This document shows positions 32,518 through 59,394 of a stretch of DNA of 64,000 nucleotides, in pieces. Under the pieces are notes generated by a model. It ran no database searches. It was given only the letters and a program-made list of their open reading frames with translations, and was not told where the DNA came from. The DNA is from Membranipora membranacea. Its lineage: Eukaryota; Bryozoa; Gymnolaemata; Cheilostomatida; Membraniporidae. Made by a program: the position numbers and the translations under genes. The DNA lies in NCBI GenBank assembly GCA_914767715.1, contig OU612068.1, positions 26,970,001-27,034,000 of the forward strand. The letters run 5' to 3'. Each line of letters opens with the position of its first letter. The first letter of the stretch is position 1.

Positions 32518-33438
32518 TATGGGGAGCCCTTTGTAAAAATTTGTCATGTCAATTAGAGCATTGCATATGTGATATGCCAAGTTTTATACATGGCATACCA
32601 ACTTTTATATGTTGCATGTCATAATTTATATATTTATGCCCATTTTTCCATGTTATATGCCAATTCTAATGTCTGTTGCATCATCATACATATGCGATAT
32701 GCTGACATTCATGCATGCTATTCCAACATACATCCATGATATGCCACCTTTCATACATGACATGTAATAATTTGTGTGTGATATGTTGAAATTCATGCAT
32801 GTCACATCAATATTCATGTTTGCTATGCCAAGATTTCTATTTTTGTTGATTCATGTATCCCACTTGCTAGTTGTCTTCTCTCATTTATGTTATACCAACA
32901 TTTATATGTGATATGTCAACACAAAAATTTATGTGGCATCAAGAATTGTCAGCGAGTCAACATGACAGACAATGAGAAGTTATCCTCACTTAGCAGTAGC
33001 CTGTGCTCCCACTATAATGTATAATAGAGAGAACGTTAGGTGTGCATTTCCTCGTTCAGTCTCAGCACGGATAGTGTCACCCATTCATCAATTTCCTGCA
33101 GTGCCAATCAACAACTCCTTGCTTTGATAAGGCCATGACAAATCACTTTTAGGTTTGTGTCAGGTCCCTTGTGGTCTTTCTCATTTACCCATGATTTTTG
33201 TGTCAATTTTATCACCTTCCTGGTCAGAGTCCAATATGGTTGGTGTGATACATATTTAATATTGTACTGTAACTACTGTTACTTACTGAGTTACTGTACT
33301 GGTATGATTTTTTTTAGTTGTTAACTCAGCTACCTCCCAGCTACCTAAAGTGTGACTGTCATGGCCTAATGACATTACCACATATACCCCGCCACAGGCC
33401 CCCTGCAGCCCTGCCACACTCCCTATATGGCCACAGTC
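32518..33438 (+). repeat. Left terminal inverted repeat of the transposon
   Basis: Pairs with 58510-59394 from TATGGGGAGCCC inwards, with small indels; the inner limit is where the block CTACCTAAAGTGTGAC...CCACAG ends. About 921 bp here against 885 in the partner; the extra bases are a short insertion near 33340-33390. A short segment of its inner edge is repeated in inverted orientation at about 33543-33590, making a local hairpin. Confidence 0.88.
32560..32850. repeat. Subterminal tandem degenerate repeats in the left TIR
   Basis: About ten degenerate units of about 30-31 bases around the core CAT(A/G)TG.(G/T)ATATGCCA.(N)TTT.ATA. Examples are ATATGTGATATGCCAAG, ATGTTATATGCCAATT and ATGCGATATGCTGAC. 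The same array occurs in reverse in the right repeat (about 59060-59350). Such arrays often bind the transposase; that role here is inference. Confidence 0.7.
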
Positions 33439-33942
33439 CACAGACAGCATTGATTTGATGAGTTGCAGCCTTGTGTGTGTGTGTGTGTGGCAAATCAAAT
33501 CAAATGTCAGTGACCTGCTGTCTGTGCACAGTTGCTGTTGGAATGTGGGCATCTAGGGAGCGTGGCAGGGCTGCAGGGGGCCTGTGAGTCTTGCCGTGTC
33601 AATCGATAATATAATTATATTATAATTATATACCGCATATCACAATGTTATCTTTTGCAAGAATCAATTAATAAATGTATCAAACTCACTCAATATGTCT
33701 CATCACTGTATCATAATAGATTAGATCTATGATTTCTGGAATTCTATTGGGAAAACCTTTAACAGTATTGGGCAGAGTTGAAGTGCTCATCACTTTTGTG
33801 TGCGATTATCTCATCAGCAAGTAATACAATCTTCACTTACCCCAATCCTATAAAACTGCACACATTTACAGTTGGAGTTATAGACCATAGTGTATCTAAC
33901 TAAACCCAATAATCCTTGTTTTGATGGCTCCCTCAGGTCCCG
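33439..33942. other. Upstream region of the transposase gene
   Basis: Between the left inverted repeat and the first recognised transposase exon. It holds a (GT)n run at about 33474-33488, the hairpin partner at about 33543-33590 and AT-rich DNA (33600-33640). The promoter and any untranslated exon probably lie here or in the inverted repeat, but I see no clear TATA box placement. Confidence 0.4.
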
Positions 33943-36900
33943 ATGGCTGGTGCGTATAAGATTGATGTCAGCTATGATCAGTTGCTGCAGTTGCTTGACT
34001 GTCACACTACAAAGACGGAGATAGCCTGTTATTTTCAAATAAGTCGCCCCACACTGAACAGTATCATCACCGATTACGAGCTTCAAGATCTCAGGCAATG
34101 GTAAGTTACTTCACTTTGTTAAATTCAGCTCTGTGACTTTGGTGTGTCAGTTGTAACCACAGCCACTCCTTTCAAGCTTGTTCGGAGGTTATCGTGTCTG
34201 TAGGCGGTCATTTAGGGATGGCTGTAGTTTGAATTGGCCTCTTCTAACCTTACCAAAAAACTTACCCAAAGCGACAAAAGCCAGCAAACATTGGGAATAA
34301 CCTCAAAAAGGGTTTTTTTCAACAGAAAAGAATTGAAATGCTTTTATTTTTCCTGTTGCAACTATGGAAATAATAAAAATAGCTTGAAAGTAGCCTACGG
34401 TATTAGAATCTATAGGTTGTACATTCGGGACTGACAGTTTGGTAATTTATAATGTACAGTGTAGTACAGTAGTTCAAATCCTGATAATCCAAAAACCCTG
34501 ATATTTAGAACAAACATAGTCAGTCCAGGCCATAGACCTAATATAAAAATTATTTTATTTATTTATATTATATAATATACTAGCATAAATATATATAATA
34601 TAAATAATAATTTAATTCATATAAGGTCTATTGTCTCGGCTGAGCACACTGTAATTACCATCGCTTAAGTAAAACTTTCACCCATACTTTGAACATTTGA
34701 CAGCTGTCTTTTCAAAAACTAGCGAACAATTTCACATTTCTCTGAACAATCTTTCTCACCAGTCGGTAGTTGGCCCAGGGGGTCAACTCTCAAACAATCA
34801 CACACCATGATCATGTTTATAATTCTTTTTATCCCCTACAACGTTTATGTGCTTCTGAAATCTACCCCCTTTAAGAAGAGTTGAGAGTCGTGATTGAACC
34901 CCTAAGAGGATGATTGACGATCTACGCAAATTTTGACCAATTATTTTCAATTTTCTTCTTGGCGAGGTTAGTGTATTGTATGGAAATTCAAAGACCAACA
35001 ACAACTTCATGAAAAATTTGTCACTAGGCATTTGAAGTTACATACTTTATACAGAAGAGAAGACAAGAACTGAAAGGTATATTGATTACTGCAGTGATTC
35101 GATCATGGATCCTGATCACTGGTTGCCATGACAGGGTAAGAAACCTAGGGAAATCTGGGATTGAATACAGCACCAACAATCAGAAAAACTATGGTAGTTT
35201 TTGCAGGTTATCGTTGTATTAAGTCCCAGAATTCCCTGTTTTTTACTCACCAGTAATCGTTAGTAATCGATTATGTAAAAATCTGCATCTCCCTTATCAA
35301 TCAGTACAGTTAGGATATCTTTGAGCCCTTCATTGTGCCCATTCATATAGCCACAGAACTTAATCGCATTAGCGGATCTGGACATTGAGCTAGTGGTAGA
35401 AATATTCTGTTTTCCATGACAATGCGCGATCCTCCCACATGAATTACTATCCCCAATATCATGGCCTTCTGTTGTAAATTGGGAAGCATGTTGATTCTGA
35501 GCCATTTATGGTTTTCCAGCTTTTTCCCAGCAGCCTACCGCCGTAGTTGATTCTGCTTAAGTGATAACTCTTAGCAACAGAAGCAGTAAACCTGTAAAAC
35601 TGTTCCATTGTTTCAGTAAAATCCCTGTGTAGATAAATTGCATTTTTTCATGTTTTCTGGCAGTTATCCCTTCAATATGATTGAGGGGATAATTCCTACA
35701 GAAAATCGGTTTCATGATTTTTTGAGTCCCCCTCTGGCCCCGAGGGAAGAGAGAGTCTATGCTCCTTAAATCTCAACCCCAAATACACCACTAGTTGAAC
35801 ATATAGCATAACTCTAAAGAGAAATTTCGATTTGAAGTGGAAAAATACCCCCTACAAGTCAGCTATATGTGAATTACAACATTTTTACTTGTGAGTATTC
35901 TGAAAACTTACCCTCTACAACTCCTGCTAAGAGGAGTTCCAAAACGTTTTAGGGGGGTCCCCCCCAAAACGATCATAATAACATGATGATGGTGTATGAT
36001 TGTTTTAGAGTTGACCCCCTGGGGTAGTTGGGTTCCTGGGCCATCCTACATGTAAAGTTTGCACTGCATTTGGATGGCAGGTTTATGAGTTAAATTGTTG
36101 GGTAATATGGCTGCGTGATTTTCTTTTACTTTGTTACCATGACAACAGATCTATCAGAGCATAAAAAATTTTTGTCTGTTGGATTATGTAAAAAAGCTCC
36201 CAGTGGGGATGCCTCTGCTCCTAACACACTTTCAACCACTGTTACACTGATCCTGTGCAAATGTTCATCTTTTATTATTCCATCTACCTGTAAGCATGGT
36301 TTGTTCGCAAAAAATACCAAGCATCATTGATATAGCTCAATTTTTAATCACTGGCTGGAAGCATTCTTCACTCACAGGATGTTTATAAATTAAGCTCCAC
36401 TTTCCTAATGAGTGAAAGTCTAGGGTCATGTTGTTGCGTCACGCGCATTGATGTCATGTTAAATTCTGCTAAATTGACAATACTTTTTCACAGACGTTGC
36501 TATACCTTAATGTGTGGTTATGTTCCAGCTAGCATCAGAAGAGACTTAGACGCAAAGACTAGGCACCTGGTACCAAGTCTCCGTGCTCTCATTGTGATAT
36601 CTTGTTCATCGCACCAGCATTTAGGTGCGCGTGTGGTATAAAAGTTATCATAATGTGAACGCAGAGACTTCGCACTATACGCATTATGTCTCTGAGCCTA
36701 AATCTGTACAGACTAGGTGGAAAACAAATCAATCAAACATATCCATCCTTATGAAAATCGATATCTACACTGACACTCTCCAAAAGAGGAAGTGTAGTGC
36801 TAATTCTTATCAACTTTGACCCGGTGTGAGACAGACTAACAAAACACCTGGATTAGTTGAAATGTGTGGAACTATTGGAACGTCTTGCTGGAACAGATAT

Positions 36901-38286
36901 CATCAGCTGCATTCCAATGACACGCTAATTGATGATTTTCAGATAATTGTTTGAGTTCTCTAGGCTCCCCATTGTGCTCTCTATAAACTTGAGTGGAGGG
37001 CAGAAACTTGTCTGTTTTACTTAAATTGCAAGTTTCTCTCGCACAGTGTTAATTTTGGTTGAGTATCACCAACATTTTATTGTCATATGGAAACCCTGTA
37101 GATTCCCAAATTTGCAACAAATTAATTTTTAAGCAGCATTTTTCAGTATGACTGTTGAACTGTACCTCTCATTGCCCGGAAAAGTGTCAAATTCAATATT
37201 TTACATTTTCATGTGCGATCGTAAGAGCACTAACCACATGCACATTCAAAACTCCCGGTTCTGTTATGGCATGTTATACCATAGACTATTTTCACATACT
37301 ATTCACAACAATTTTGTTGCAGGGCAAGGCTAACTGATGCGGAACTAGACGACATTACTGAGAAAGCATTGGTGAAATTGCCGGGCATCGGAGAACGCAT
37401 GCTTATGGGCCACTTCAGGTCATTAGGTCACAGAGTGCAACGGCGCCGACTCAGGGAGTCAATTAAACGTGTTGATCCGATTGGTGTTGTGCAGCGCCGT
37501 GAGAATTTACAACACAGGATCACCGGGCGTGTTTACAATGTCCCACATCCTCACTATATCTGGCACATTGACGGCAACCACAAGATGAATCGCTGGGGCT
37601 TATATATCCATGGGGCTATAGATGGTTATTCGCGAAGCTGCCTTTACTTGGAGTGTCATAGCAATAACCTGGCTGAAACTGTGTACCAGCTATTTGCAGA
37701 GGCTGTTGAAAGATTTAATATCATTCCTACACATGTAAGATCTGATTACGGAACTGAGAATGTTCGAGTTTGGGATTTTATGAATGATATCTCAGATTTA
37801 ACCGGGAGTCCAGCAGTCTTCCTCGGATCTTCTGTACATAATCAAAGAATAGAGCGGTTCAATCGCGAAATCAATAAAAACATACGTGACAAGTTTGGTG
37901 TGTTGTTCAGAATGTTGGAAAGTCGAGGAATTCTAAATGTTGAAGACTCGCTGGACATTTTCGCCCTCCACTATGTCTTCCTACCCCGAATAAACGAGTC
38001 ACTCAGAATACTTATGAATTCTCACAACAACCACCCAGTCAGCTCGGAGGGAAACAAGACTCCTTATCAAATGCTTGCAACAGGAGGATTCGAAGTGCCA
38101 TACAACAAAGAAAGTGTTGATATGACACAGACATTTCGAAATAAAAATGAAATAGAGGAGCTTATTCCTCCTGAATACTTAGAACACATGATTAATACAG
38201 TACCATCATTTACAGCTGATAATGATCATGGTTGTACCGTTTACGAGGCGATCAGGGAATTTCTACACGCATATTGTTATGAATAA
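33943..38286 (+). CDS. DDE transposase/integrase with N-terminal HTH (two exons)
   Basis: Exons 33943-34100 and 37323-38286 join GT-AG (phase 2, forming a TGG codon) to give 373 residues. Exon 1 starts with ATG (MAGAYKIDVSYDQLLQLLDC) and ends in a helix-turn-helix-like 'KTEIACYFQISRPTLNSII'. Exon 2 holds an integrase core with 'WHIDGNHKMNRWGLYIHGA' (D136), 'VRSDYGTENVRVW' (D194) and 'VHNQRIERFNREI' (E230). The D194-E230 spacing is 35 residues, the D,D(35)E spacing of retroviral and IS3-type integrases. Proteins with this WHIDGNHK core are abundant in fish, corals and lancelets and are often labelled only 'integrase core domain'. No stop or frameshift seen: it may be active. The + strand has no ATG near the start of exon 2, so the short exon is needed. 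The C-terminus has no recognised domain. Confidence 0.9.
34531..34632. mobile_element. MITE with CATAGACCT termini (copy 1)
   Basis: AT-rich palindrome starting CATAGACCTAATATAAA and ending AAGGTCTAT(T). The flanking octamers GTCCAGGC and GTCTCGGC agree in six of eight positions. It lies in the transposase intron. Two better-preserved relatives are at 44565 and 53162. Confidence 0.6.
34773..36024. mobile_element. 1.25-kb element with CCCCAGGGGGT termini
   Basis: Inverted termini (G)CCCAGGGGGTCAACTCT and AGAGTTGACCCCCTGGGG, extending about 45 bp with matching ACAATCA.ACACCAT blocks. Flanked by TAGTTG on both sides (34767-34772 and 36025-36030), a 6-bp duplication. It lies in the transposase intron. 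It holds one 81-codon frame on the - strand (35260-35505) with no recognised domain. The family also occurs at 52700-52986. Confidence 0.75.
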
Positions 38287-38940: not shown

Positions 38941-41420
38941 TTACATTGTTCCAAAGAGTTTTGTGCTGAATGCTGTGTCCATCAGCGCCATCAGCCTGGA
39001 TTCAGCAGGATAACGAGTAGTCGAATCTGGTGGGATCGGCAAATACATCTGGTTAGCACATGTAGATGCTGTAGGCATCCAGTGCTCATGAGGACGGAAG
39101 GTTATAGTAGGCTTCATCTTGAAACCAAGCACGGGTTCATATCTGCTGCCAGTGGCGAATTCCAGAATATCTTCTGGGGTTATTTTTCCGTTAACTCCTT
39201 TTCGATTTCCACCTGAAAGCAATGACACTATTGAACAACATGTATGTTTTTGCATTAACCAAGGTTAGATTGCCTGAGGGAGGATTTCTCCGCTGTGACA
39301 ATACTGCTAAGATAGGTCTTCTCATGGTTTCCACTAACAATTAAGAAAGAAAACTCAAGTTAAAGGTTTATAAAAGTGACAAGCTGAAACCTATAGAGCG
39401 CTCTTGTTCAGTTTTGAATTTTTAGCTATGTTGACTGCATTTCACTAAGAAATAATGTGAAATAGCTGCATTTTACTTGATCTACCAAAGACAATTTATC
39501 AGCTAATTTGTGTATGTCACTTTGCTAGTGTTTTAGGCTTGTAGCGGAGGGCCTGAAAAGTGACTTTGTAGCTATGAACTGTAAAGCTAAACTTATTTTT
39601 GCGCAGGAGTGTTCATCGACACCATGACTAACAAGACATAATTATAACATGATTCTCGCTTACCGAAGACGTCTCTGACATATTTATTGAACAGCCCGTA
39701 AGCTTGATCATGTCGTTTTCTCAAATTACTACTCTGGGGAGCATCAGATTGTGTGGTGAATATTCTGAGAAAACGGGATGGCGTTTCGTGTTTTTGTTTG
39801 TGTGTCATCATCAGCTGTTCCACTTCTTTTATCTTCATCAGCTACAATATTACATTGGCATTAATCCAGGGGCGATTATGACCACTACGGAGATATTGGC
39901 AATGGGAGTTATCCTCCCATGAAAAAGAGGCAGACAATTAACATGTCTGAAAAATTGAAAACGGTCAAGTATGTCAAAACGGTTGAACATAGAGTTGATA
40001 TAGGGGTTTTTTGGCACGTTTTATTCAAATTTCCCAGCTATATCTTTCTGTTTTCTCTACTCCTTCAACGTGTTTTGAGCCCTTTCGGGTTGGATGAGGC
40101 AACAGAAAGCTAGACTAGGCAGTAAACTTTTTTTTGCAATATACACCCCCTGCATCAATCTCACCTCACGTCTTTTTCAGTAGGGTATGGGAATGATGCC
40201 AGCATTCAACTAAAACAGCAGATTAAAACCTACCAGTTATTTCAAACTTGGTACCTACTACCCACCTTCCAAATGCCTGAGCGCTTCAGTCCACTCTTAT
40301 ATTGCTCGTAATGCTCTCCGTCCTTCAATGGCGGTACCGTACATACAGGCCCTCCCTGTATCACACTCATTCCTATTAAACGAGAATAAGATACTTACAC
40401 CTCAATTTGAATACAGTTCATGTCTACTACAGGGTAAAAGTTTATGCGGAGTTACGATAGGAAGCATTGCTGCAATGTTGACAATGTACCAATATTTCCA
40501 TCAGGGGATGTGACAATAAGGAAGTACCGTGATATCTCGCCTATAAGACACAGGCCTTTTAAGTGAATCGTCAAATCTGTCAAATTTTCAGGCTTTATCT
40601 CGTCCTAGAGTAAACGTTGAAATTAGATTGATTGATTGAGGGAAATATCCAGCTCTCGCTGTGGCAATTCATGGGAATGTTAAAGCGTTAGACTTAGTAC
40701 TACGTGCATGGTGGGGGTGAATCACAATTTTCCCTATAGATAAAGACATAGACAAAGAAGGCTTTGATAGGAGTTGGTCTAATGCGGGCAAGTCTTGATG
40801 TAATGTCATGGCCCTAAAAAGATGTTTGCGCATTTAAGATTAAGAAACCATTTGGGAAAACCCGGTAATAGGTCACAGAAGATAACGATTTTTTGTGCAT
40901 GCAGAAGATATAGCTGGCTGGCTGTTGATGAATTTTGCCGCCGAATCTTTATCTGTAAAGAGTGCCGACATTAGGTCTAATGAGAATATGCATTGCCTTC
41001 AATGACACTTGCTTTAACCAGTCAATTGTAGGATGAGGAATGTTTAGCAACAACTGCTTGCTCTTGACAACTTTTGCATTACCCAGAGTGGCTCGGCTCT
41101 GTATTATCCAATATTTGCAAATGTGGCCTGGCCCTGTAAATATCTGGTCCATAGCTAATAAAGTGTACGACAAGACAGTCATGAAAGACCCAAAACTTCA
41201 TCAACCAATCATTTTAAATATGTATTGTGGACCTATACGTTGAAAGCCTCCTCATTTTAAACTTCAGTACCTGTGATAAGGCCGTAAACATAGTAGAGCT
41301 GACTGTCAAAATGTCCCTTAATATACACTAGCTCGTTATCATCCTCTGTAAGCATCTCCCTCACTTCTGTGAGAAAAAGGTTGAAAAATTCCTTGCGTGG
41401 ACCTCCATAATCCTCTGCAT
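38941..41420 (-). CDS. HECT catalytic region
   Basis: Exons 41271-41420 (GPRKEFF block, ends LITG), 39664-39841 and 38941-39212. The last exon gives the C-lobe with the thioester cysteine, the flanking ASTC.NQMYLP motif, and a C-terminus ending FSTKLFGTM. Between 41271 and 39841 a piece reading 'LLAMDQIFTGPGHICKYWI' and 'NIPHPTIDWLKQ' (minus, about 41110-40990) resembles the middle of HECT N-lobes, but I cannot place its splice sites with confidence. Confidence 0.85.
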
Positions 41421-44400
41421 CTGAATAATAAACAATAATTATGATTAATGAGTGTACAAGAAACCTACAAGTATGGTAAAGATGTGAGAGATTAATCCTA
41501 GACTCTACGCAGGACTCGGGGGATGGGCCAGCAGAGGACAGGCTCCCTTCTCCCTTATGCACCAAGGAAGACCTAACCCTAAGTAATATAAACAATTTCC
41601 TCGTGATATTGAGGAGTTGTTCCCCCATTTACACTGAGAGAATAACTGCCATTATATTTGGTTTAACACAAATCTAACCAGCAATTTTTTTCCACCAAGG
41701 AATCGTTACTACATACATGAACTATTTTACTGTTTCATCTTCACATAGATTACTAGATCAGACAAATGATTTGTAAATAAGAACTCAGATATTTGCTGTC
41801 CAAACATCTCGGATCTGAATGCCCACTTGAGACAGTGAAGTATCTGATCGGACAGTGAGTTAATATTCTCTACCTTCCAACCGGAACGAGACCTCTAGAG
41901 GTACCCTCGTGTCTAAACACTCTGTTACTCGATGTTGATCTGCATCGATTATCTCATCAACAGTTGAGCTCACTATATTGCTCCTAGAGATCATGATTGG
42001 TACTGTTGCGCCCTCTATTACTTCAAATGTTGAAGTCAGATCAAGCGGTCTAGCATCTGGACGCCATGCAGCCTCCCTGTAAGCTCGGAGAACCTTCACC
42101 GCATCAGGTCTTGTGCAGCGACTGCTCACTCTAAAAACAAAGAGAAGACATTGGCGTAACTTGACAGAAACTACTACATGTCAGAAGTCATCTTTAAGCT
42201 GGTATTGATAAATTCTAAAGATCAAAAGCTTTCATGTGAGCTGATGTTCAATTCTCAAAACTCAAGTCCTAAGCGTTAGCCTGGCAGTGAAAAGTGGTCA
42301 TGTTGGCAGTATTGTACATCAGGTCAGGACTTTTTTTTATATACGTCCACCATTGAAATATTCGAAGAGCCCCTATATCAGACGGCTAAGTTCAAAATTT
42401 CTTATTTTAGTAAGCATAGGCCTAATTTGAGACTGCCCACTACTGTTTTATTAGATATAATTTTAGGCCTAAATGAATTTGGGCCAGGTTTTATCCTGGA
42501 ACGAGCCTCTTGGTTTTGGCTAGCAAAGGGCTGTCCTAGGTCAATATGTTGACTGCAAATGGATGGGATACTGGACAACCTGATAGTACTGACTAGTAAG
42601 TTTTGGGAGGGGACAGATTTCTGGTTTGGTGACGTGGATAAGTTGATCGATCTGCTTACAGCACTGGTTTCCATCAGAGGGATTTGTTAATGGTATTCAC
42701 TTGTAACAAGCCCCATTTGCAACATAATTTTTTGGTCGGGAGGGCATAACTTTATCAGTGATCTACATCTCTGAGTATATTACGAGTGTAGTATTTAATA
42801 AGTACTGACTTTTCATTGTGTTGATTACGACAGGCAAATAGCAAAGCTGGCAGCATGTACCTACATGTAGCTCTCACAATTAGCCACCATTGACAAGTTA
42901 ATTCCAATCCATATAAATCGTACTAATGGGTGGGAAGAAATGTTCACAAGCCTGGGTGAATCGTCGCCGAGGACGACGACCAGCCAGTATTCTATTACAA
43001 GACAGAGTTTTCAATTGTGGTCTTATCATGCTGAAACCAACCCTAACCTGACCAAACTGCTATGTTTTTTGGCGACTCTATCTCGCATTGTGTTTGTGTT
43101 TCTAAGGCAGATACCAAATGTAGAATTATTGTAAAGTGTTTTCCATGACTTTAAATTAAAAATTTAATATACATACAGAATATCAATCTTAACTCCTTTG
43201 CTAATTTCTTGATTATACAAAATACAGCTGTGCCCCTTATAATGAGCTGAGTTTCTCTTGTCTATTTATTAGCTATTATGGCTAGGAGGGTAATCATTTT
43301 CAGTTTCATGCAGGTTGATGTTTACATTCATGGTCATCATTATGGCAGTAAAATTTTAGCTTTTGGCACAGTGGGGGATGTGCAAGTCTGCATTTGGTTG
43401 TATTAATGAAAAAAAATAACAACGCCAATTAGTACCGAAATGGTACCCGAATACCTAACGTTCATCATGGAACAGTTTAATATTGGTTAACGTACATGTG
43501 CTACCAGTTTTCAAACTAGCCTTTTCTTAGTTAGACTTAGAGCTTCAAAATGATGGGAAATAATCTATTTACACGAAAAACATCTTAACAGGGCACGGTT
43601 TAACAATAGAACATACCACGCAACACTACCCAAGTCCCCTGTTTCCGCTGCTAGTAAATCGATGGTGTGAACAAGCTTGGGCCTATTAAATCACACATAT
43701 TTTGCTGCAAAAGGTAAGTAGTACCTTTTGGCCTCATTGAAAGCTATGAGAATTGATTTTTCCTCATTTGACAAATCTTCACTATCAGCTGATGGCGCTT
43801 GAAGAGACAGATTGGCAGTGACTTGTGTAGGAGGATCCGAGTTGCCAGATGTAGTGGCCGCTTGGTTGGAGACTTCAGTTTCTTGGACTTCACGAGCTGT
43901 AAAACCATGGACACTGAGAGTGCCGGTACCAGAAGAGACTCTTGATCTGGTTGCGGCTGGTCTCCTCGCTGTGCCGGTAGCTGCCGGTCGATTGCTGCTC
44001 CCTACCAGCTGCTCAGATACGACCTCTATATCCTCGTCACTATCAGCAGTACCTCTAACAAATAATAAATCAAGCATAAATCCAGCCAAATCTTGGGCGA
44101 ATGAAGAGTGACACCAATAAAACTGCTGCCGATGTCGCAACATCTCGGCATTTTGGTCAAAGCACACTCATCAATTCATCATGAGCCAGTTGACATCAAC
44201 GCCACTGCACACCAATACTAAATGTTTGGGAACAAAGCTGAAGCCCTTTTGATTTGACAGCAAATTAACACTTCAATCGACTCAGGGAATATGCCAGCAC
44301 CATAAAAGCAATGAGTAAAAGTATGTGATTCTCTCAACACTAGTAGTTAATAATGGAATGTCAATGTTGAAACTGATTATTGATCCTGATTTTTTTACAT

Positions 44401-47400
44401 GTGTTTCCAAGGTTGTTGCTAAAAATAGCACCGTTGCTCCATTTTTTTATTAAAATTACAATAATTTCTCCAAAACTACCCAGCAACCTATTTGCCCCAG
44501 GGGGCAGCTCTGAACAAAGCATACACTATGCTCAAGTCTTTCTTGATTTTTTACCACCTACAACCATAGACCTAATATAAATATTTATTTATATTAGGTC
44601 TATGCCTACAACACATTCTCTGACTTCTGACAAAAGACCCCATACAAAGACTCAAATTCTGAGGACTGAAATATACCCCCAACAAGTCACCATAACGCAT
44701 AATAATACCTAGAAAGGCAATTCGTTGTCAGTTACTCAAGCAACAATTATTAAAAGTCTTTATATGGCCTATAATATACATAGAAAACCATAATTTGATT
44801 AGGAGTCTTCTACACAATCATATTGTGGAGACAACTCTTTGAAAACCCTAGAACTCCAATTGCTCTAGCAAATGTTGAGAGGCTCCTGAGAACAACTCCC
44901 TACAAAGATGACTTTGGAAGTGTATAGAACCTCCCTTAACATTGAGAAAGACCTGTGCGTAGTGTAGCTTCATTTGGAAGATGACCCTCGGGACTATTTT
45001 CTAAAATTCTCACCAAATTTTGTTAAGTTCGGAAAGGATTATGGAAATGGCAGCTGTTCAAAATTAATTATGATAGACACAAAATGTATCATCACTCAAG
45101 TCAACCCTGTTAATTCTGAGTTGGTTGCCTATGATGGTGACTTCATACAGGCCTTCATCCCCTTGCTTCTCACTGAAAGAGAAACTTGACCCATATACAA
45201 TAGTGGTATAAATAATATCGGTCAACAATACAATTGGTCAGGAATAGTACACAAGTCATTGAAAATGGAACATGGGGCTGGGACACACATGACATACGGT
45301 ACACACAACACAGTTTTGATATGGAGCGAGATCCAATGGGTTTTTTTTTTACAATACTTAGGTAAAAGCCAGTGTTTACGTTACCTAAAAATTAAATATG
45401 AAAATCTGACAGGGTACGTTCACAACGGATTTGTAAAATTTATAGCCATACGGTATGTCTATCAATAAGGGGAATAAATGATACTGTATACCACAGGTAA
45501 TAAAATACGATGTCAATCAATCATTGACTTGTAATACATGTCCCTATGCAGCTTGAACACTCAATAAAATATCCTGAGACTGCCCCCAGCGGATGGTCAG
45601 CTAAAAATGATCACCAGGAAAGTGTAAGAGCTCCTCCCCACTAATTCCACCAGCTTGAGTTAAAAGTGTCACCCTTTCCACTAACTAGTTGTACATACAT
45701 GCTACCTTTGACACGATATCCCTCCCACAGCTGTTATCATTACTTGAGAATTTTCTTGGCATTATCTGCTTGTCCTTAAGATGATAGCACCGATGGTCTC
45801 AAAAGCTCTTTTGTGTATTTGTTTTGTTGAATCAAACAAGAGCACGACTCCAAATCAAATATATACTTTTGCATAATCCAATGCCAGTTTGAGTTCTTTA
45901 CTGAAGTGTACACTGCACCACACCATTGTTGGTTTGGTAGACCAGACTAGGTGAACGCCTTAGAGCAACATCAGCTTCAATTAGAATATCAGAGAATACA
46001 TTTATATAGGGCATGCCGATATCAATGTGAGACAACTCAAAATTTCACACACCTGGTATTTGTGGACTCTTCATTACCACTCTCATTCAAGGAGATAGCT
46101 GGTAGGTCATCTCCTTCATCTTTTTCCTCACTGTAAAACATACAATTATACTGATGATACTGATGATACTAATGACTTTATCAGCTTTGAATGTTACCAC
46201 CATATCAGCAAACTCATGGGCTCCTACCTATCGGCAGCTTTGGTTCGTTGGTCTGTCCTGGGTCTTCAAACATCGGTTATAATTAGTGTCGCAATCGATG
46301 CCACTGGCTGAACCAGGCACTTGCATTCAGGTCGCTAATAAATCCTATTGAATAACTGCTTATACAATGAGCAGGTTTGCAAAGTATCTGATGACAGTCA
46401 ACTCATCAGAGCTTTTCTAATATGCTAAAATTGGAATGTTCAGGTATATGACTAGGTAGATAGATATAATAATCTCCAATCAGTTTGATATTCTAATAAG
46501 TTCAATTCAATACAAAATTTCCATACTATCCTTTGCAATTCGACTTCTCTAAATTTTAAGTAAAAGTACAATAAATCTTCCATATACATTGTACGTCATT
46601 ATCTCATTTTGACAATGAAAGTAATGTCATGTTTGGAATCAGCATGCTCAAAAATGTCTAAGACCAGTATTCAATTATCACTTCCTGGTTGGGTCTACTG
46701 TGAGTTGTCCACCCCTGCACATGCAGAGATAAAAGAGGACAGCTGACATTTTTTACTAAAAAAATTTTCTGATTCATGATCGAAATTTCAACTGTTTATC
46801 ATGTTTTATTCAACTCGATACCTCTAAAGCCTCATATTGATTCCTTGGATATTTTTAAGTCCTTACATGCAAACCCATCAACATACATTGAATCAAGAGG
46901 AGAGCCTAACAAACAAACAGTTTATGAGTCAAAGTGACAAGTAAATTGTATGTGCCATGTGTAACTGAAAGCTGCATGTTAGGCATTGACCTGTTCACTA
47001 CATTTCAGACATGCCTATGCCTATCGAATCGATTGAAAATACGAACAATGCAAACATGAGAACAAGAAACACTTTGCCAACTGAAAACTTTGACAACCAA
47101 CCTTTTTGTGTCCTGTAAATATCATAAATGTTTATAATTACACAAAGGTCCTGCATGTACACTAATGTACATTTTTACTATCTTTATAAGATCATCGGAA
47201 ATTAATGATCATAGTGACCAGGGTTTTCCTGGTGAATGCTAGACAAGTGGAGTGAATTGCCCAGAATTGATAATTATGCATTTTTCCAATAAGAACCTCT
47301 TTTCAAGGGTGATAAAGCTTGGGGGTTTGCCTTGGAATTTATAAAGCAAGTTATCAAAATGCACAAAGCATGCTTACATCAAATAGTGATACCGGATTCA

Positions 47401-50400
47401 AGTTTTAAACTAGGCCTATGTAAGATTCGAACAGCAATGATCGGATATACATTAAGGGCCAGTGATTATTTTCATGATTTCAATATCCAATGAGGTGCTA
47501 TCAGCATAAAACCTTGATAAAAAAAGCTAAGGTATGCAAAGCATTTAACTAGCCGACTCCTACTCAGCCAACAAGCTGTCATTCAAGTATAATGCATTTT
47601 TTCTCAGTCATTGCTTAATTGATTGGTAGCTGGTAGTTTTCTATCTGAACAGATAGCTCACCTGCACAAAGTAGCTGTCAGGTAGAGTCACTGCGTCGAG
47701 CTCTCTGCTGGGTAAGAGGTATATGTACTTAGACTGTCCGAGAACCTTTTTGAGGTTAAGAGCATTCAATGTCTGATCTGGTGGCAGATTCGGAGGTACT
47801 AGGTTTCGAGAGACATCTATCATAATCTGGGTAACACTAAAAATGAAATAAGGATGTCATTTAGTACGGAAATAATACTTTTTATAACTATCTGACTTTA
47901 AATGGAGTTACCAAGGCAGCTCATGTGTAGGCTACCGAGGCATGGTATAATAATATTTTGCAACTATTACATTACGTCTATGGTAGGATACAATTAATAT
48001 ACCAGACAAGGATTGCTTGCCCTGGATGGAATGCTAATTCAGCATTAAAAAACCCCTCACTTCATGTGTGACGTGACATGTCGTCTCCAAAGATACTCAG
48101 TAATTTCTGTACATGTATAATCAGTGTTATATTGGAATGCATCATTAAATTTATATTTCATCTTAGCTAGGTGTAATAAAGGCAAAAGGTATATGCCACA
48201 ACATGCAGCCGTAAGCCTTCTTCAATGTATCGCCAAGATAGTCATTTAATTATTTCAGCTCACATGACACAAACGATTCTACAGGGTGTTGTTGAGAGAA
48301 ATTGCGAATGGAAATAAAAATTCGGGCCACATACGCTACTAGTATAATAGATAAGGCATAGAGCTATTGATTGCGGGAATCTAACGAATTGCTAATAATA
48401 TCTGACGGGCAGGTTTGAAGCTGTATTTGTGTAAAATAAGGTGAGAAAGACCTATTTTTGACCAATTTTCTCTGCTTCAATTCCCGCCCAACAGATATTA
48501 TTGGCAGTGTTGACTGTACCCCACATTTAATAACTCCACGCTTTATCTAGTAGCACATACAGCCCAAATTTTTTAACTCCCCACCCAAAATTTGCTCCAA
48601 AAGGATCATTACTGTGCTAACAAGCTTCATACTGAAATGTCCCGTGTATGCAATTTGAGTAGGGCTGTGGAGAAAAATTGAGAAAGAAATATGTGATATC
48701 CTCCGTGTGTGGTATCCATCATTCCAGATTTCATTTCTATGTTGTTGTGACCCATAGACTTAAAGGGGAACACAACAAAGAAAATTGATGTTGACTGAAA
48801 ATGAAGAGTTTCTCAGCAGCTTTACCGGATCGGAAACATAATTTGTCTATCATGCTTAGTTTCCAAGCAAATTGAATTTGTATTATGCTTGGGATTTCCC
48901 AAAGGATTCCAAGGTTGAGAAAACCAGCAATGAAGCCTCAAAAAATCTTGCTTTCTATGTACAGTAGAGCTCTGAATTCAGTGTCACATAGTTTATTAAT
49001 AATTGCAGAAGCATAAAACAAGAGCTCGCGTCTTATGCCCTGCTCAGTCCAAAGATAGCATTTAATCGAGATTATAAACAAATCAACTTCCTTTTTGTTG
49101 ACGTCAAATCAAAAATTTCACACTGCTGTAAAATTGAATCCGGCGCACCTAAACAAGTCAAATTTTGATTCTGTGCTCAACTACAGTTCCTCCATGAGAT
49201 ATGAGCATTTCAGCAAAATCTATTTTTCACTCCCCCTGTGTTGTGTTTAGCTTTAATTTAATATAATAAACATGGCATCAGTGTCTGTTCTGCTGAACAA
49301 TTAATTCTATGTCGCAATGTCACAGAAATTCCAACAATATATGTCCCACTTTGGACTGTATAGTCTAAGTGAGGCACATATCAAGTCCATGATGTGACCA
49401 AATCTGACAAAAGGAACCCTTGTACAGTCCCCAGATTTGGAGACTCTCATTAAAGACACCCCCTCTGCCTCTTTGTGAAGAGGAGCCGGGTTAGCGGCGG
49501 GCATGGGTATAAGGCTACAGCAGAAACAAGAGCTTTGGCCAACTTTGTGAGGACTGCATTTCTATGAGTGCATACAGGGTACTACTAACCTTGCACCTTT
49601 CAAAACACCCACAAACAGTTCATTAAACATCCTTATCATGTCCTGCTTGGTATATGAAAGGGTAATTTCAACATTTCCATATGTATGCGCTTGAAGATAA
49701 AGTGCAAGTTTTTCCGCCCCCATGGGTACTTTCCTAGCAGACGGGGATGTCATCAGTGTGACTGTTTTTGCGAACGTGCGACCTTGCATCATCCTTCCCC
49801 CACTCTGATCACTAGCCCTGTAATAGAAAAAAGTTGTTTATGCTTGGGGCCAGGATCAAGTTGTACAATGGCCAATTGGGAAACCTAAGGCTGGTCTGAT
49901 GATTATAATCAAATTGTAGTTGCTGGAATAGCTGAGTACCAGTAGTAACAAATGGCATGTATTTAAATATTTGAGCCTTGAACATCTGTCAACATGGTGA
50001 AATACACTGTTACATACCATTAGGCCATTCAAAATTAATGTGTTGGTCCAGATATACACTTTGGGATCTGCCCTGGTGAGGGAGGAGGACTTTTATTTTA
50101 GGATTTTTGAGTATTTTTACGCAAATTGAGGCATAAAATTGATAACATCCTCTATAATTTGGATATCTGACTTCTTTTTCAAGAAAAAAAGAATCAAATG
50201 TGCTCAATGTGAGAAGAAGGAAGGTGAGAGATGAGGTATTTTGTTTCATCAGACCCCATTTCCTGTGGAGCTGGAAACTGCTAACTTACCCCCTTGTTAA
50301 CTGGACCAACACATTAATTTGGAGTAGCCTTACGACGAATGGACACTCATCATAGGCCTACATAATGTTCACTTGTTTGAGATAGAACAAAATGACCAAA

Positions 50401-52986: not shown

Positions 52987-53161
52987 ATAAAGCCTGCCTG
53001 TGCTGCCTGGATCCCACTTCAATGTTGCTTTCCTAGCAGCACCCAACTACATGTATTTTCCCTAGGGCAGCACACTGATTTTGGGAAGCACTACCATAAA
53101 TCAACTCAATCTTGTAATCAGTGAGCTAGGGTAGCAAAGATTTAATTCTATGAGGGTGGCC

Positions 53162-53221
53162 CATAGACCTACTAATAATATAAATAAAATATATATATGT
53201 ATAGATTATAGAAGGTCTATG
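53162..53221. mobile_element. 60-bp palindromic MITE with 8-bp TSD (copy 3)
   Basis: Starts CATAGACCTACTAATAATAT and ends AGAAGGTCTATG. Flanked by GGGTGGCC (53154-53161) and GGGTGGCT (53222-53229), an 8-bp duplication with one mismatch. It lies immediately next to the 3' tail of the LINE. Confidence 0.8.
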
Positions 53222-53252
53222 GGGTGGCTATTGCAAAAACAGCGCAGTAGAG

Positions 53253-53272
53253 TTACCTTACCTTACCTTACC
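53253..53272 (-). repeat. LINE 3' microsatellite tail (TTACC)4
   Basis: Four exact copies of TTACC, directly before the LINE 3' UTR. Short-repeat tails of this kind mark CR1/L2-like elements. The tail is preceded, across a 23-base stretch, by the 8-bp-TSD MITE at 53162-53221. Confidence 0.85.
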
Positions 53273-53552
53273 TTCAACTTAATCCAAACCGTCCACATCA
53301 CGGGCACATTTGGATAAATATACCTTCAGTGTGTTCGGAGGGGTATTGCGTACTGGTATTGCAGGTGATTAATTTACAGAAAAAATGTTAAAAATACACC
53401 AATAATTGAACATTAATAAATTGCCTGCCCAGTTATGAAGAGAAAGGATTTATAGTAAACAAGTTGACCATAGTTAATCGATGTCTATCGGCATGTACTT
53501 GATATGTACATGTAATGCTAAGATGTTAGTTAATTGTTAGAAGGTTGTCAGG

Positions 53553-56336
53553 TTAATTTGGAGGAAAATATACCTTTACCTCTGGCCTCATTCTATTATA
53601 GTAGCTATGTGACCATGCATCACAACTATGCTGCCAACTAATTGTTTTACCTCTGGTGTCGTGGGTAGATGAAACAAAGCGTATATAGGTATTCAATTTT
53701 ATGTCGAACAGTCCTCCTTCCACTTTTCTAAGAAATGTAATATCTATTGCTTCTCTCCTGTCAGACAAAAGGGGAATAGCATGGTTATTCATACATTCAG
53801 TTACGCTGTCAGTTTTATTTAAATGATATATCCATTTTACTGCATTTCTCTGAACTTTTTCCAAGCTATTATTCAGACCAATGTTATGTGGCGACCACAC
53901 CTGACATGTATATTCTAAGATGGGTTTAACCATGGTTTTGTAAGCTAGAAGTTTGGTTTTAACCGGGGCCTCTTTGAGTCCTCGTTTTATGAGACCGAGT
54001 GAACGATTCGCCTTCTTTACTACATTCGATATATGTACATTCCATTTCAGGTTGGAATGGATGGTCACACCAAGGTACTTGACAGAGTCTGAGTGTGGTA
54101 TGACATTGTCACCAAGCTTCAGACTTATATCTGGCTGATCACTTCCTACTTTCACATGTACACATTTCTTATGGTTGAAAATCATACCCCATTTATCAGC
54201 CCAACTTTTCAATTCATTTATATCATCTTGAAGAGATTTAGCATCATTTATGATTTCTGAACATAAGATGGTGTCATCTGCATATAACCTGCAGTCAGAG
54301 TTTTGGATTGACTGTGAGATGTCATTAACGTATATCAGAAACAAAAGTGGTCCTAAGACCGATCCCTGTGGAACACCAGATGAAGCATGAAATATACTAG
54401 ATTTATTGCCATTAACGTTAACAGTACATGTCCTATCAGTCAGCCAGCTTTCAATCCATTCAATGCATTTACTATCAAACTTATAATGTTTCAATTTATG
54501 AATAAGCAGCGCATGAGGCACCTTATCGAAGGCTTTTGAAAAATCGAAGCTAATAATATGGTAATCTTTGTGCTGATCAAGGGATTGGGTTGCAAAATGA
54601 ATGACATGTAATAGTTGAGTTGTAGTATTCAGCCCTCTCCTGAATCCATGTTGCCTGTCACTCACAATATCATGCTCCTCTATATGACTCCACATGTTAG
54701 AGCAGAGTATGTGTTCAGTGAGCTTGGATATAATACATGTGAGACTGATCGGACGGTAGTTGTTGCTATCGGAACGGTCACCACCTTTATACACTGGAGT
54801 GACATTTGCATGGCGCCATATCTTCGGTACTTTACCAGCCTTCACACTAGCCTGAATCACATGTTGAACACAATCTATAAAAGATGGTACATTGTTGGCA
54901 AACATCTTCAGGGTCATAGCAGAAATGTTGTCTGGTCCGCAAGATTTTCTAGAGTCAAGTTTCTTGAGCATGACTTCTATGCCAGATTTACTGACATGTA
55001 TTTTATCCATAACTGATATATGCGTTTCTGCCATCTTAGGCTTATTATATTGCTTTGCAGTGTAGACTGAGGCAAAATGCTCAGCTAACCTATCAGGTAC
55101 CTGGTCAGATGGAGTATCTTTGAGCCCAGTGATACTATTGGATCGACCACTGGTTTTCTTCAGATAGTTGAACAAAGGTTTAGAATTGCCATCTTCCAAC
55201 TGCTTGGTAAGATGGTCTTTGAGGTAAGAGCTCTTAGCATTCTTAACTTTCATTTTGATCTCAGAGCATATATCATCATACTCATTTTCATGGGCTATGC
55301 TAGGGAATCGTTCATTCCGGTCAAATAGCCGATCTCTTTTACTAATGAGGCGTTTAATTTCACGTTTAATCCATGGATGTCCCTTAGGCCTATTTAGCTT
55401 ACCTGGTATAGTTGCTGTAGCTTCTTTAGTTGCAGATTCAAATTTATTCCAGATGTTTTCAACTGAGAGGTTGTCCGTTTCAGTTTCTTTGTAGAATGTT
55501 TTTAGACTGGAGAAGTGTTCTTCGATTTTGGAGTAGTCTGCCTTGTTGAAATTGAGTCTTTTTTGCTGGGTTGTGTTGGTTTCACTCTTCTCAAAGCTTT
55601 GGATAGCAATCTCGGTGAGGATCATTTTATGATCCGAGATGTATGGTTTAATATTGCACGTAACAGTCAACTGATCCAATGCAGACTTATTAACCATAAC
55701 AAGATCAAGTGTATTACCGGCTATGTGAGTGGACTCAAGAACAAGTTGAACCAGATCAGCATCATTTATAATTTCAAGAGCTTTGTTGTGCAATGCTTTC
55801 TTATTAGATGAAGGCTTAACATAGGATGTATCACCATCTTTCCTCCAGACAATATCTGGCAGATTGAAGTCACCAAAATAAAGGCAGTTATCATGAACAT
55901 TTTCATCAATCAAGGCTTCTAAATTGTCTAGACAGTATTCATTTGGCGGTCGATAGTACACAACAAAGTTAATTTTGACTTTAGGATGCACCTGGATTTG
56001 TAAAGTGACAGACTCACCTGGTCCGTAGGAAGTATTGAGGATGACAAGTGATGATTCAGTAGACGTGGCGAAAAGGGTTCCCCCAGCGCCTTTATTTCTA
56101 TCATTTCTATATAAAGTATACTTATTTCCTAAGAATTCGTTATCATCAAAATTTTCACCAATTTTTGTTTCAGTGACTGCTATGAGATCTGGTTTATATG
56201 TTTCAACATTTGCTTTAATCAGGTCCAGTTTTCCTTTAATAGAGTTACAGTTCATACTGAGAACTTTAACTTTCCCCATTATCCTTGTTTGATTCTCCAG
56301 TGAGCTGTTTGTTGTTAGCACTGTCGTCTGCTTCAA
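53553..56336 (-). CDS. LINE ORF2: endonuclease and reverse transcriptase
   Basis: Up to 927 residues without a stop. Endonuclease motifs: 'VLSMNCNSIKGKLDLI' (N29), E56 in AVTETKIG, D156/N158 in 'YFGDFNLPDIVW', and 'YISDHKMIL' (D235, H236). Reverse transcriptase: 'NNYRPISLTCIISKL', D598 in 'IISFDFSKAFDKV', 'SGVPQGSVLGPLLFLIYV' and the YADD box (Y685-D688). Initiation is more likely at Met20 (56279), just inside the ORF1 end, giving 908 residues. All catalytic residues are intact, so the copy may be active or recently inserted. Confidence 0.93.
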   Translation of the reverse strand: MKQTTVLTTNSSLENQTRIMGKVKVLSMNCNSIKGKLDLIKANVETYKPDLIAVTETKIGENFDDNEFLGNKYTLYRNDRNKGAGGTLFATSTESSLVILNTSYGPGESVTLQIQVHPKVKINFVVYYRPPNEYCLDNLEALIDENVHDNCLYFGDFNLPDIVWRKDGDTSYVKPSSNKKALHNKALEIINDADLVQLVLESTHIAGNTLDLVMVNKSALDQLTVTCNIKPYISDHKMILTEIAIQSFEKSETNTTQQKRLNFNKADYSKIEEHFSSLKTFYKETETDNLSVENIWNKFESATKEATATIPGKLNRPKGHPWIKREIKRLISKRDRLFDRNERFPSIAHENEYDDICSEIKMKVKNAKSSYLKDHLTKQLEDGNSKPLFNYLKKTSGRSNSITGLKDTPSDQVPDRLAEHFASVYTAKQYNKPKMAETHISVMDKIHVSKSGIEVMLKKLDSRKSCGPDNISAMTLKMFANNVPSFIDCVQHVIQASVKAGKVPKIWRHANVTPVYKGGDRSDSNNYRPISLTCIISKLTEHILCSNMWSHIEEHDIVSDRQHGFRRGLNTTTQLLHVIHFATQSLDQHKDYHIISFDFSKAFDKVPHALLIHKLKHYKFDSKCIEWIESWLTDRTCTVNVNGNKSSIFHASSGVPQGSVLGPLLFLIYVNDISQSIQNSDCRLYADDTILCSEIINDAKSLQDDINELKSWADKWGMIFNHKKCVHVKVGSDQPDISLKLGDNVIPHSDSVKYLGVTIHSNLKWNVHISNVVKKANRSLGLIKRGLKEAPVKTKLLAYKTMVKPILEYTCQVWSPHNIGLNNSLEKVQRNAVKWIYHLNKTDSVTECMNNHAIPLLSDRREAIDITFLRKVEGGLFDIKLNTYIRFVSSTHDTRGKTISWQHSCDAWSHSYYNRMRPEVKVYFPPN

Positions 56337-57804
56337 GTTGTTGTGTTGCAGGTGCCTGAATGCTCATGGAGACATCACCGGTAACTTGTGGGCAAGCTGG
56401 TTCAGCATTAGTGACTAGCGGGTTAGCTTCTTTGGCTGGTGCTTGTACAGATTCTTCGTCTTCATCATCTTCAAGAGAAGTATGGTATTCCTCCTCTGCT
56501 ATATCATCTTCTTCTTTGTATAAGGATCTCTCACCGTTGGTGGTTTCATATATCTCACCTTTAAATATTTTAAATGATCTGTCTCCATGCTTAGCTCTGA
56601 TGTTTGTCAGTTTCCTCACAAGAGCACGGTCCTCCCTAAGCTGTTCCTCATCTAAAAATGGTCTTGCAAACACATTCTTGAATTCTTCTGCAGTATCAGT
56701 ATCAAATCGTAGCTTATTGACCTCTTTTATGAACATCCACTTTATAGCAGGGTTAATACATGTGATTGCAATGGGTGGATCTATTTTTCCATTTGAAGGT
56801 AAACGATCAGCCACTTGTATTTCAGTGGAATATATCTTACATAAGAAGTGTAACTGCTCAATAATGTTGTTGATATTTCTGTTACCTTTCATATTATAAA
56901 CTACTAATGTGAGATTAGGATCAGGGTTGAAACGGTGCTTCTTACTAGGCACTGTTGAGGGGTTCCTATTATTTACAAGTGGGTGACCACTTGAGTTTGT
57001 CATACCTCTACTCATATTATGGTTTCGTTGAAAAGGAGGCGGTGGTCTAGGATACCTGTTTTGTAGTGGGGGTCTGAGATACATATCTGGGGGTCTGGGA
57101 TACATGTCAGGGGGTGCCATAACAGATGGTGGAACCTTATCCCATACATTATCTGATAGTCTGTGTCTATTAGTCATAGTATCATGGTCATCATCCGACT
57201 CATACCATGATCGATTCTCTGTTCGACTGGGTCGACATGGGGACAACTCCTCAGCAATGGGTTTAGCACACTTCAAGTTGTGAATTATACTACTGATTTC
57301 AGCGCTATTATCATATAGAGATTTGCCATGATCGGACACTAGCTTATCAAGGGACGATCTATGATCATTAACCATTTTGTCTAAATCAACAAGTCTGGCT
57401 GATAAGTTATTCAATATCTGTTCAGAGAGCTTGACTCTCTTGGGAGGCTCATCCAACATCATCTCTACTTTTTTGATAATACCAGAGAATAGGTTTTCTG
57501 AGTGCTTAGGTAACACCATTGGCTTACATTTGAAGCATAGATATACTAGAGGATTATCTTCATGTTTGTTAAGCATTTCGTAAATCTCAAGCTTCATCTT
57601 GCCGTCACATCTTATGTGAGTATAGTGTTTGCAGAAGTCACAAGCTATTCCAGCATCGTTATCTTTCACTTCATTTGAGCATACCAGACAATTTTCATCA
57701 CATGTCCCATTGGTCTTTGGCTTACCTTTGTTTTTGGCGGAGGCTGATGCTTTCTTGCTTACGCTTGTCTTCGATTGGCTTAGTTGTTCTTGACTTGAGG
57801 CCAT
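56266..57804 (-). CDS. LINE ORF1 protein with PHD-type zinc finger
   Basis: 512 residues. A PHD-type C4HC3 motif is visible: C39-x2-C42-x12-C55-x2-C58-x4-H63-x2-C66-x23-C90-x2-C93. Then comes a coiled-coil-like hydrophobic repeat ('LVDLDKMVNDHRSSLDKLVS') and a proline-rich PPDMYPRPPDMYLRPP region. C-terminal parts are acidic. PHD fingers in ORF1 are known in the CR1 clade. The stop overlaps the probable ORF2 start: ATGGGGAAAGTTAA holds ATG at 56279 and the TAA ending at 56266, a 14-nt overlap. Confidence 0.88.
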   Translation of the reverse strand: MASSQEQLSQSKTSVSKKASASAKNKGKPKTNGTCDENCLVCSNEVKDNDAGIACDFCKHYTHIRCDGKMKLEIYEMLNKHEDNPLVYLCFKCKPMVLPKHSENLFSGIIKKVEMMLDEPPKRVKLSEQILNNLSARLVDLDKMVNDHRSSLDKLVSDHGKSLYDNSAEISSIIHNLKCAKPIAEELSPCRPSRTENRSWYESDDDHDTMTNRHRLSDNVWDKVPPSVMAPPDMYPRPPDMYLRPPLQNRYPRPPPPFQRNHNMSRGMTNSSGHPLVNNRNPSTVPSKKHRFNPDPNLTLVVYNMKGNRNINNIIEQLHFLCKIYSTEIQVADRLPSNGKIDPPIAITCINPAIKWMFIKEVNKLRFDTDTAEEFKNVFARPFLDEEQLREDRALVRKLTNIRAKHGDRSFKIFKGEIYETTNGERSLYKEEDDIAEEEYHTSLEDDEDEESVQAPAKEANPLVTNAEPACPQVTGDVSMSIQAPATQQLEADDSANNKQLTGESNKDNGES

Positions 57805-58509
57805 TTCTATAGCTACAATATGATTGGTAGGTTGGGGTAGGTTGTAAGAAAATGTGCATAAATTTTAGGAATAGTTATAATGACTCCTCAAATAATACAG
57901 TGCTATCCCTTAACCTTCAATTTAACTTATGTCACTAGATTTGGTGGGTATGAAGAAGTGGTTAGCCTAATTTAAGTGTATATGTTATCAGTTGTAAGAC
58001 CTACTTACAGCTGACAACATTGATGGTCAAGTCTTCAATCAATCCTTTCTCAACTTAGCCGGTCAAAAAAGGATAGACAGGAGGTTGATGACTGAATAAG
58101 AATAAGAATAAAAATGAACACTCCACAGACAACAGGCAATGTGAAAAAAATTGGTGTTGTTTGAAGTAGAAAAAGACCCTAACTGTGATGGTGAGATTTC
58201 CTTCTGACAGAAGATGATGCAGAACTGGTAGTTATATCAAACTACTTTGGTTGTTGTTCAGACCCCCGGTGGGGCCTAAGCCCCTGAGCAGTCAGGACAG
58301 GTAATTTATCCTGTACCCAACAGTGATGTTTATGGACGGTTGGTTTGGGTTGAGGTAAGTGTTGTTGCTTCAGTCTTGGTGGTAGATATCAATTCAGCAG
58401 GAGATACTAGGTTATACAATGAAAAGTTAATCTTTTCTTTCAGAGCAGCAAATTTTGCAGCTTGCCGCCATGAAACCGGAAACACATAGATAGGGCCTTT
58501 TGTAACTCC
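57805..58509 (-). promoter_or_regulatory. LINE 5' UTR / internal promoter region
   Basis: Between ORF1 and the right terminal repeat, with no ORF of interest. It includes a T/G-rich core and the motif 'CCTATCTATGTGTTTCCGG'-like start near 58495 on the minus strand. Promoter elements are assumed from LINE biology and not seen as defined motifs. Confidence 0.35.
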
Positions 58510-59394
58510 GACTGTGGGCATCTAGGGAGCGTGGCAGGGCTGCAGGGGGCCTGTGGTCACACTTTAGGTAGCTGAGTTAATAACTAAAAAAAATCATACC
58601 AGTACAGTAACTCAGTAAGTAACAGTACTCAGTACAAAATTAAACATGTATCACACCAACCATACTGGACTCTGACCAGGAAGGTGTTAAAATTGACACA
58701 AAAATCATGGGTAAATGAGGAAGACCACAAGGGACCTGACACAAACCTAAAGTGTGATTTGTCATGGCCTTATCAAAGCAAGGAGTTGTTGATTGGCACT
58801 GCAGGAAATTGATGAATGGGTGACACTATCCGTGCTGATACTGAACGAGGAAGATGCACACCTAACGTTCTCTCTATTATACATGTAATTATCTTTATAG
58901 TGGGAGCACAGGCTACTGCTAAGTGAGGATAACTTCTCATTGTCAGTCATGTTGACTCGCTGACAATTCTTGATGCCACATAAATTTTTGTGTTGACATA
59001 TCACATATAAATGTTGGTATAACATAAATGAGAGAAGACAACTAGCAAGTGGGATACATGAATCAACAAAAATAGAAATCTTGGCATAGCAAACATGAAT
59101 ATTGATGTGACATGCATGAATTTCAACATATCACACACAAATTATTACATGTCATGTATGAAAGGTGGCATATCATGGATGAATGTTGGAATAGCATGCA
59201 TGAATGTCAGCATATCACATATGAATGTTGATGCAACACACATTAGAATTGGCATATAACATGGAAAAATGGGCATAAATATATAAATTATGACATGCAA
59301 CATATAAAAGTTGGTATGCCATGTATAAAACTTGGCATATCACATATGCAATGCTCTAATTGACATGACAAATTTTTACAAAGGGCTCCCCATA
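58510..59394 (-). repeat. Right terminal inverted repeat of the transposon
   Basis: Reverse complement of 32518-33438. It ends GGGCTCCCCATA at 59394. The high similarity of the two repeats over nearly 0.9 kb argues that the insertion is not ancient. Confidence 0.88.

Follow-up and report, generated by a model that had tools for sequence, protein, structure and literature searches.

The window analysed here is a stretch of 64,000 nucleotides from the bryozoan Membranipora membranacea (GenBank assembly GCA_914767715.1, contig OU612068.1, positions 26,970,001 to 27,034,000 of the forward strand). An inverted-repeat search together with BLAST delimits within it a DNA transposon at positions 32518-59394, which holds a two-exon transposase gene, a convergent nine-exon HECT-type gene about 655 bp away and a nested LINE. 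The features are listed below in window coordinates.

16920-16925, no strand: empty target site TCTTTG of the inverted paralogue, from the joined-flank alignment
32512-32517, no strand: left target-site duplication TCTTAG (empty site TCTTTG)
32518-33335, plus: left terminal inverted repeat, starting TATGGGGAGCCC
33943-34100, plus: transposase exon 1, with ATG and donor TG/GTAAGTT; one segment matches fish relatives at their N-termini, with a best E of 1.8e-5
37323-38286, plus: transposase exon 2, DDE catalytic core with integrase fold
38941-39212, minus: HECT exon 9, C-lobe and stop codon (PF00632, E 3.1e-8)
39058-39060, minus: predicted catalytic cysteine codon (PTASTCANQ); motif kept in a second family (FPTSSTCAN) and a third (HTSTCAC)
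39664-39841, minus: HECT exon 8
40266-40372, minus: HECT exon 7
41271-41420, minus: HECT exon 6, N-lobe motif EDYGGPRKEFF
41874-42130, minus: HECT exon 5
43725-44054, minus: HECT exon 4, Ser/Thr/Ala-rich linker
46053-46126, minus: HECT exon 3, the least certain exon; the second of two close AGs is taken as acceptor, which keeps the frame open
47662-47836, minus: HECT exon 2
49590-49817, minus: HECT exon 1 of the model, with a possible start codon at 49792
53257-58491, minus: nested LINE, a later insertion foreign to the transposon, with a 936-aa endonuclease-reverse transcriptase ORF and a 532-aa ORF
58566-59394, minus: right terminal inverted repeat, ending GGGCTCCCCATA
59395-59400, no strand: right target-site duplication TCTTTG

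The two arms of the terminal inverted repeat (TIR) are 96.4% identical over 831 columns. Their presence and their TAT...ATA ends had been recognised in a first-pass annotation of the sequence; the termini read TATGGGG...CCCCATA, and the length comes to about 0.82 kb rather than the 0.9 kb given there. Outside the arms lies a 6-bp target-site duplication (TSD), TCTTAG against TCTTTG, with one mismatch, the left copy being one base off the empty site. When the flanks are joined they match an inverted paralogue (17446-16442) at 93% and without a break, across a single TCTTTG at 16925-16920. Since this match to the empty site is uninterrupted, the element boundaries and the 6-bp duplication are exact, and the duplication and the paralogous empty site described earlier are both confirmed. 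The clean empty site and the TSDs rule out an assembly artefact. The size of 26.9 kb needs a qualification: the ends at 32518 and 59394 hold, but 5,235 bp between them are the later LINE insertion, which is missing from two other copies of the element (C7c and C3, see below), and the window element minus the LINE measures about 21.6 kb. The LINE itself terminates in a CTTAC-type repeat tail.

The spliced DDE transposase that had been proposed is recovered as a two-exon gene (33943-34100 and 37323-38286) for a 373-aa protein of the DD35E integrase type. Its exon-2 ORF matches the Pfam families rva_4 (PF24764, E 7.5e-59) and rve (PF00665, E 1e-8), and the acidic triad is D136, D194 and E230 of the 373 residues (D96, D154 and E190 when numbered along the ORF). 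In a 15-sequence alignment both aspartates are invariant, and the glutamate, 35 residues after the second of them, is at least 90% conserved. The predicted fold (pLDDT 79.6, pTM 0.83) finds its best matches in Rous sarcoma virus integrase and IstA, at E values of about 3e-4. The N-terminus aligns with the N-terminal segments of relatives; those named among the 120 matches listed of 1,563 include many from fish as well as crinoid, tunicate and nemertean sequences. Viral contigs scanned with the transposase alignment yielded no relative, and a plasmid search gave no match.

By all features examined, namely termini, 6-bp TSD and DDE core, the element is of the IS3EU/GingerRoot type. Its integrase-like core and 6-bp TSD are those of this group, and TATGGGG...CCCCATA agrees with the TA..TA termini, in fungi TAYGG..CCRTA. 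A Polinton/Maverick-like element would likewise fit a size of about 20 kb, long TIRs, a 6-bp TSD and an integrase fold. Polintons also encode a protein-primed DNA polymerase and capsid genes. Among the ORFs of at least 60 aa, however, none inside the element besides the LINE is of polymerase size, although a heavily spliced gene could escape such a count; in the 18 ORFs out of 109 that were compared with Pfam, the domains above the cut-off are all of transposase, HECT or LINE type, and TAT..ATA termini belong to IS3EU. We therefore give this assignment almost no credence. In the available text of PMC10045372, IS3EU/GingerRoot elements have TA..TA termini, usually a 6-bp TSD and an integrase-like DDE transposase; termini, TSD and transposase are thus alike, while the word 'hect' does not occur in that paper.

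The second gene runs on the minus strand from 49817 to 38941 and has a 589-aa open frame, with all modelled introns bounded by GT/AG. Its C-lobe matches PF00632 at E 3.1e-8 when taken alone and at 1.9e-7 within the nine-exon model, in agreement with the convergent, multi-exon HECT-type gene that had been read from the sequence. AREL1 is the best solved relative of exons 5-9 (E 4.1e-5): PTASTCANQ, which holds the predicted catalytic cysteine, aligns with its PTAHTCFNQ, and the EDYGGPRKEFF region aligns to it at a weak score, in a place where E6AP also matches and where Pfam, which sees the C-lobe only, is silent. The domain is hence divergent, with an N-lobe traced through weak PDB matches and motifs. 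None of the 7,995 candidates scored in a protein search with the HECT sequence reached E <= 0.001, and a single-sequence structure model of the C-lobe (pLDDT 39.5) was useless.

The genome searched for further copies comprises 339 Mb in 18 contigs; below, WIN denotes the window copy and C-numbers denote contigs. The left TIR has 34 matches, of which 14 fall in long copies and in places on C7 and the other 20 on C5, C6 and C11. Six long TIR-to-TIR copies were read: WIN, C7b (31.1 kb), C7c (23.8 kb), C3 (20.7 kb), C8a (15.7 kb) and C8b (16.6 kb). All six end in TATGGGG...CCCCATA and carry transposase and HECT convergently, the C8 pair in decayed form. Perfect TSDs are CACAAG, TTCAAT, CCGTAA (C8a) and AAAACA (a short C11 derivative), and C8b has CCGTAA/CCGTTG with two mismatches. 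The distinct duplications TCTT(A/T)G, CACAAG, TTCAAT and CCGTAA point to four independent insertions. Two further places on C7, each broken by an assembly gap, have the CACAAG flank of C7b and C7c: one at 6118252 keeps only the left TIR and the transposase start, the other, near 7.0 Mb, the remainder of the transposase, HECT and the right TIR. The C7 places look like segmental duplications, as do the two C8 copies, which have a common left flank.

Four of the six long copies (WIN, C3, C7b and C7c) have an unbroken HECT frame. On C7 this frame shows a 3-nt in-frame length change, and it is open in both C7b and C7c, whose transposase has lost 1 nt from exon 1. The C8 copies have lost HECT exons 1-3 and their frames are damaged.

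The 20 TIR matches on C5, C6 and C11 are distant from any transposase or HECT match of this first family; two of them were read at their ends. C11:2394771-2395986 is a 1,216-bp foldback derivative with the perfect TSD AAAACA, too short for a transposase or a HECT gene and presumably moved by an enzyme supplied in trans. Because this gene-less derivative has a perfect TSD, the two genes are not required in cis. C11:6826790-6827689 and C6:20389691-20390465 resemble it, by TIR matches only. An apparent 69-kb gene-less element at C5:27294757-27364143 was rejected: its flanks are reverse complements and a TSD is absent, so the pair represents one end duplicated in inverted orientation, about 69 kb across. 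The refuting conditions named in the first-pass annotation, when checked within this genome, do not overturn its reading: every long copy read carries both genes, and HECT also occurs next to other transposase lineages. The 1.2-kb C11 derivative, with no room for either gene, speaks against it.

Is the pairing a property of this one family? A transposase search of the genome gave 29 matches, and the Pfam family 25, which were grouped as 22 loci. Twelve of these cover 165 or more of the 194 profile positions, a threshold chosen post hoc, and are counted as near-complete; 11 of the 12 have a HECT C-lobe within 3 kb. Seven of the 12 belong to the window's family, and of the five others four have the C-lobe. 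The C-lobe was detected by PF00632 at nine of the 11 loci and by tblastn at C8a and C2, and it is convergent with the transposase at all but C5:26632819, where HECT follows 2.8 kb downstream on the strand of the transposase. At the near-complete locus C5:27171101 there is no HECT within 1.5 kb. The ten fragmentary loci lack a PF00632 match within 3 kb, and tblastn finds none within 1.5 kb at seven of them; this silence of PF00632 is weak evidence, because the profile also missed C8a and C2.

Two other families are informative here. The second is represented by C8:20758494 and C3:24727919, which share 96% identity across 4 kb; their transposases are 51% and 53% identical to that of the window. 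The convergent C-lobe of this family carries the motif FPTSSTCANILYLP and shares 33 of 79 residues with the window's (E 7.6e-13), with a stop inside the C-lobe of the C8 copy. In the third (C2:37450809) the transposase is 32% identical in one comparison and 88/307 in another; the C-lobe is again convergent and, with 26 of 77 residues identical, matches at E 8.7e-6 or better. A DDGGPRREFF motif gives a weak N-lobe match (E 0.01-0.03). Going by their position, the HECT genes of these other families would also lie within an element. The pairing that had been noted for a single element thus extends to other transposase lineages in the genome. Chance co-occurrence was rejected: with 70 HECT matches in 339 Mb and 3 kb on either side, about 0.015 loci are expected among the 12 and 0.006 among the five, against 11 and four seen. 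Capture at a single site is likewise ruled out, by the several insertions and the several families. Weak HECT C-lobe matches without a transposase nearby also occur, at C2:6456198, C5:26920123, C5:26304231, C5:27908128, C10:11570261 and C1:17988094, and may be relics of the same transposon HECT, or host genes.

Does the HECT frame bear traces of selection? The comparisons between intact copies overlap and involve small numbers, against a neutral expectation of 77% nonsynonymous changes. Within these limits there is a synonymous excess: nonsynonymous changes make up 10 of 20 between WIN and C3 (p 0.007), 8 of 19 between C3 and C7c (p 0.001) and 4 of 9 between WIN and C7c (p 0.035). No such excess is seen between WIN and the decayed C8 copies (33/42 and 34/46 nonsynonymous). 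The transposase gives 5/6 for WIN-C3 (p 0.76) and 25/40 for WIN-C8a (p 0.014). Overall divergence of the HECT exons is not below that of non-coding sequence for WIN-C3 (1.13%, 20/1,771 bases, versus 1.01%) and slightly below it for WIN-C7c (0.51%, 9/1,771, versus 0.68%).

These data bear on whether the HECT frame is a dead relic, found near transposases only through shared ancestry. A divergent domain, known here from sequence, the decayed C8 copies and the stop in one second-family C-lobe would all suit such a history. Against it stand the synonymous excess and a frame that is open in four copies and changes length on C7 by an in-frame 3 nt, and we regard it as quite improbable. A stronger competitor, though still an unlikely one, is that a host HECT was captured once by an ancestor of these elements and has been carried as a passenger that plays no part in transposition and would be under selection, if any, because it benefits the host. 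Such a passenger could explain why, between the first two families, the HECT C-lobe diverges more than the transposase core (pN 0.46 vs 0.31), why C5:27171101 is near-complete with no HECT within 1.5 kb, why exons 1-3 are gone from the C8 copies in the window's family, and why the gene-less C11 derivative could move. It accounts less well for the synonymous excess between intact HECT copies, and for a pair that is kept, usually convergent and with the catalytic-cysteine motif retained, across lineages that have diverged to saturation at synonymous sites (pS 0.7-0.9). Since the pair persists over such distances, a single recent capture is unlikely.

We consider it probable that the element represents an IS3EU/GingerRoot-type lineage that keeps a DD35E transposase together with a HECT ligase, usually in convergent orientation, and that the ligase helps the element in trans. 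Because the pair recurs beside distantly related transposases, HECT looks like a long-kept partner and not an accidental passenger; the sequences make a conserved accessory gene the most likely reading, rather than chance cargo. Evidence for the pair comes from the ends, the TSD, the empty site, the several insertions, and the cysteine motif and HECT frame that have been kept. The word 'cargo', used in the first-pass annotation, undersells a pairing that looks old and conserved. In the mechanism we propose, the HECT protein would be made as an active ligase and act in trans to help the element. We favour the idea that it would ubiquitinate silencing or repair factors, or similar host proteins by which transposition is restricted or processed; alternatively, it might regulate the transposase or its post-integration complex. 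Ubiquitination is a means by which many viruses counter the defences of their hosts. A cut-and-paste transposon with an E3 ligase of its own would offer a direct way to ask whether DNA transposons do likewise, or control their transposase by this means, and some of the HECT genes scattered in genomes could be transposon genes. Lineage-specific expansions of 'G2E3-like' HECT genes are known from fish and cnidarians. One could speculate further, although we think it doubtful, that animal IS3EU is a long-lived lineage with HECT as a second core gene, serving as a transposition or anti-silencing factor, and that its HECT genes may have seeded such expansions.

The closest parallel in print is fungal IS3EU, in which an alpha-kinase gene is oriented opposite to the transposase gene. 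In the sections available of PMC12730594, these TET+ elements resemble ours in their TAYGG..CCRTA termini, 6-bp TSD and second enzyme gene of opposite orientation; in contrast, that second gene is an alpha-kinase and a TET/JBP gene lies between. Styx of Zymoseptoria similarly combines an IS3EU-type transposase with further coding sequences, four in all, but has no HECT ligase in the accessible part of its description (PMC10853768), a paper in which the word HECT does not occur. Ginger1 also ties an integrase-type transposase to ubiquitin/SUMO chemistry; as far as the excerpted account goes (PMC2836005), it does so unlike here through modifier-removing OTU/Ulp1 proteases that are domains of the transposase, with no separate ligase gene. 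Its authors propose, in the same excerpts, that the ubiquitin pathway takes part in transposition, a proposal that a transposon-borne ligase, if real, would extend. The open-licence papers searched do not mention HECT and IS3EU together, and an earlier mention elsewhere is possible; the open-licence literature on the HECT domain and transposons has no title on a transposon-borne HECT, nor is one described in the portion of PMC8195603 at hand.

Several observations concern the surroundings of the element. The empty site derives from a large inverted duplication (12083-21220 versus 28084-64000), whose main pieces are about 90-96% identical. Inside it lies a fragment of a PARP catalytic domain (30722-31102; PARP E 3e-4, below the Pfam cut-off); an ORF at 18399-18731 resembles it. 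The first 3,000 nucleotides of the window, translated with stops read as X, gave no match in a Pfam scan. A macro domain (PF01661, E 3.8e-23) occupies 8922-9398, adjoining a 526-aa ORF that matches no Pfam family. Because this macro domain occurs together with the PARP fragment, the sequence suggests a PARP14-like host gene region. Finally, a tandem array of CAAACCCCAAAA-type units of about 21 bp spans 22287-22653.
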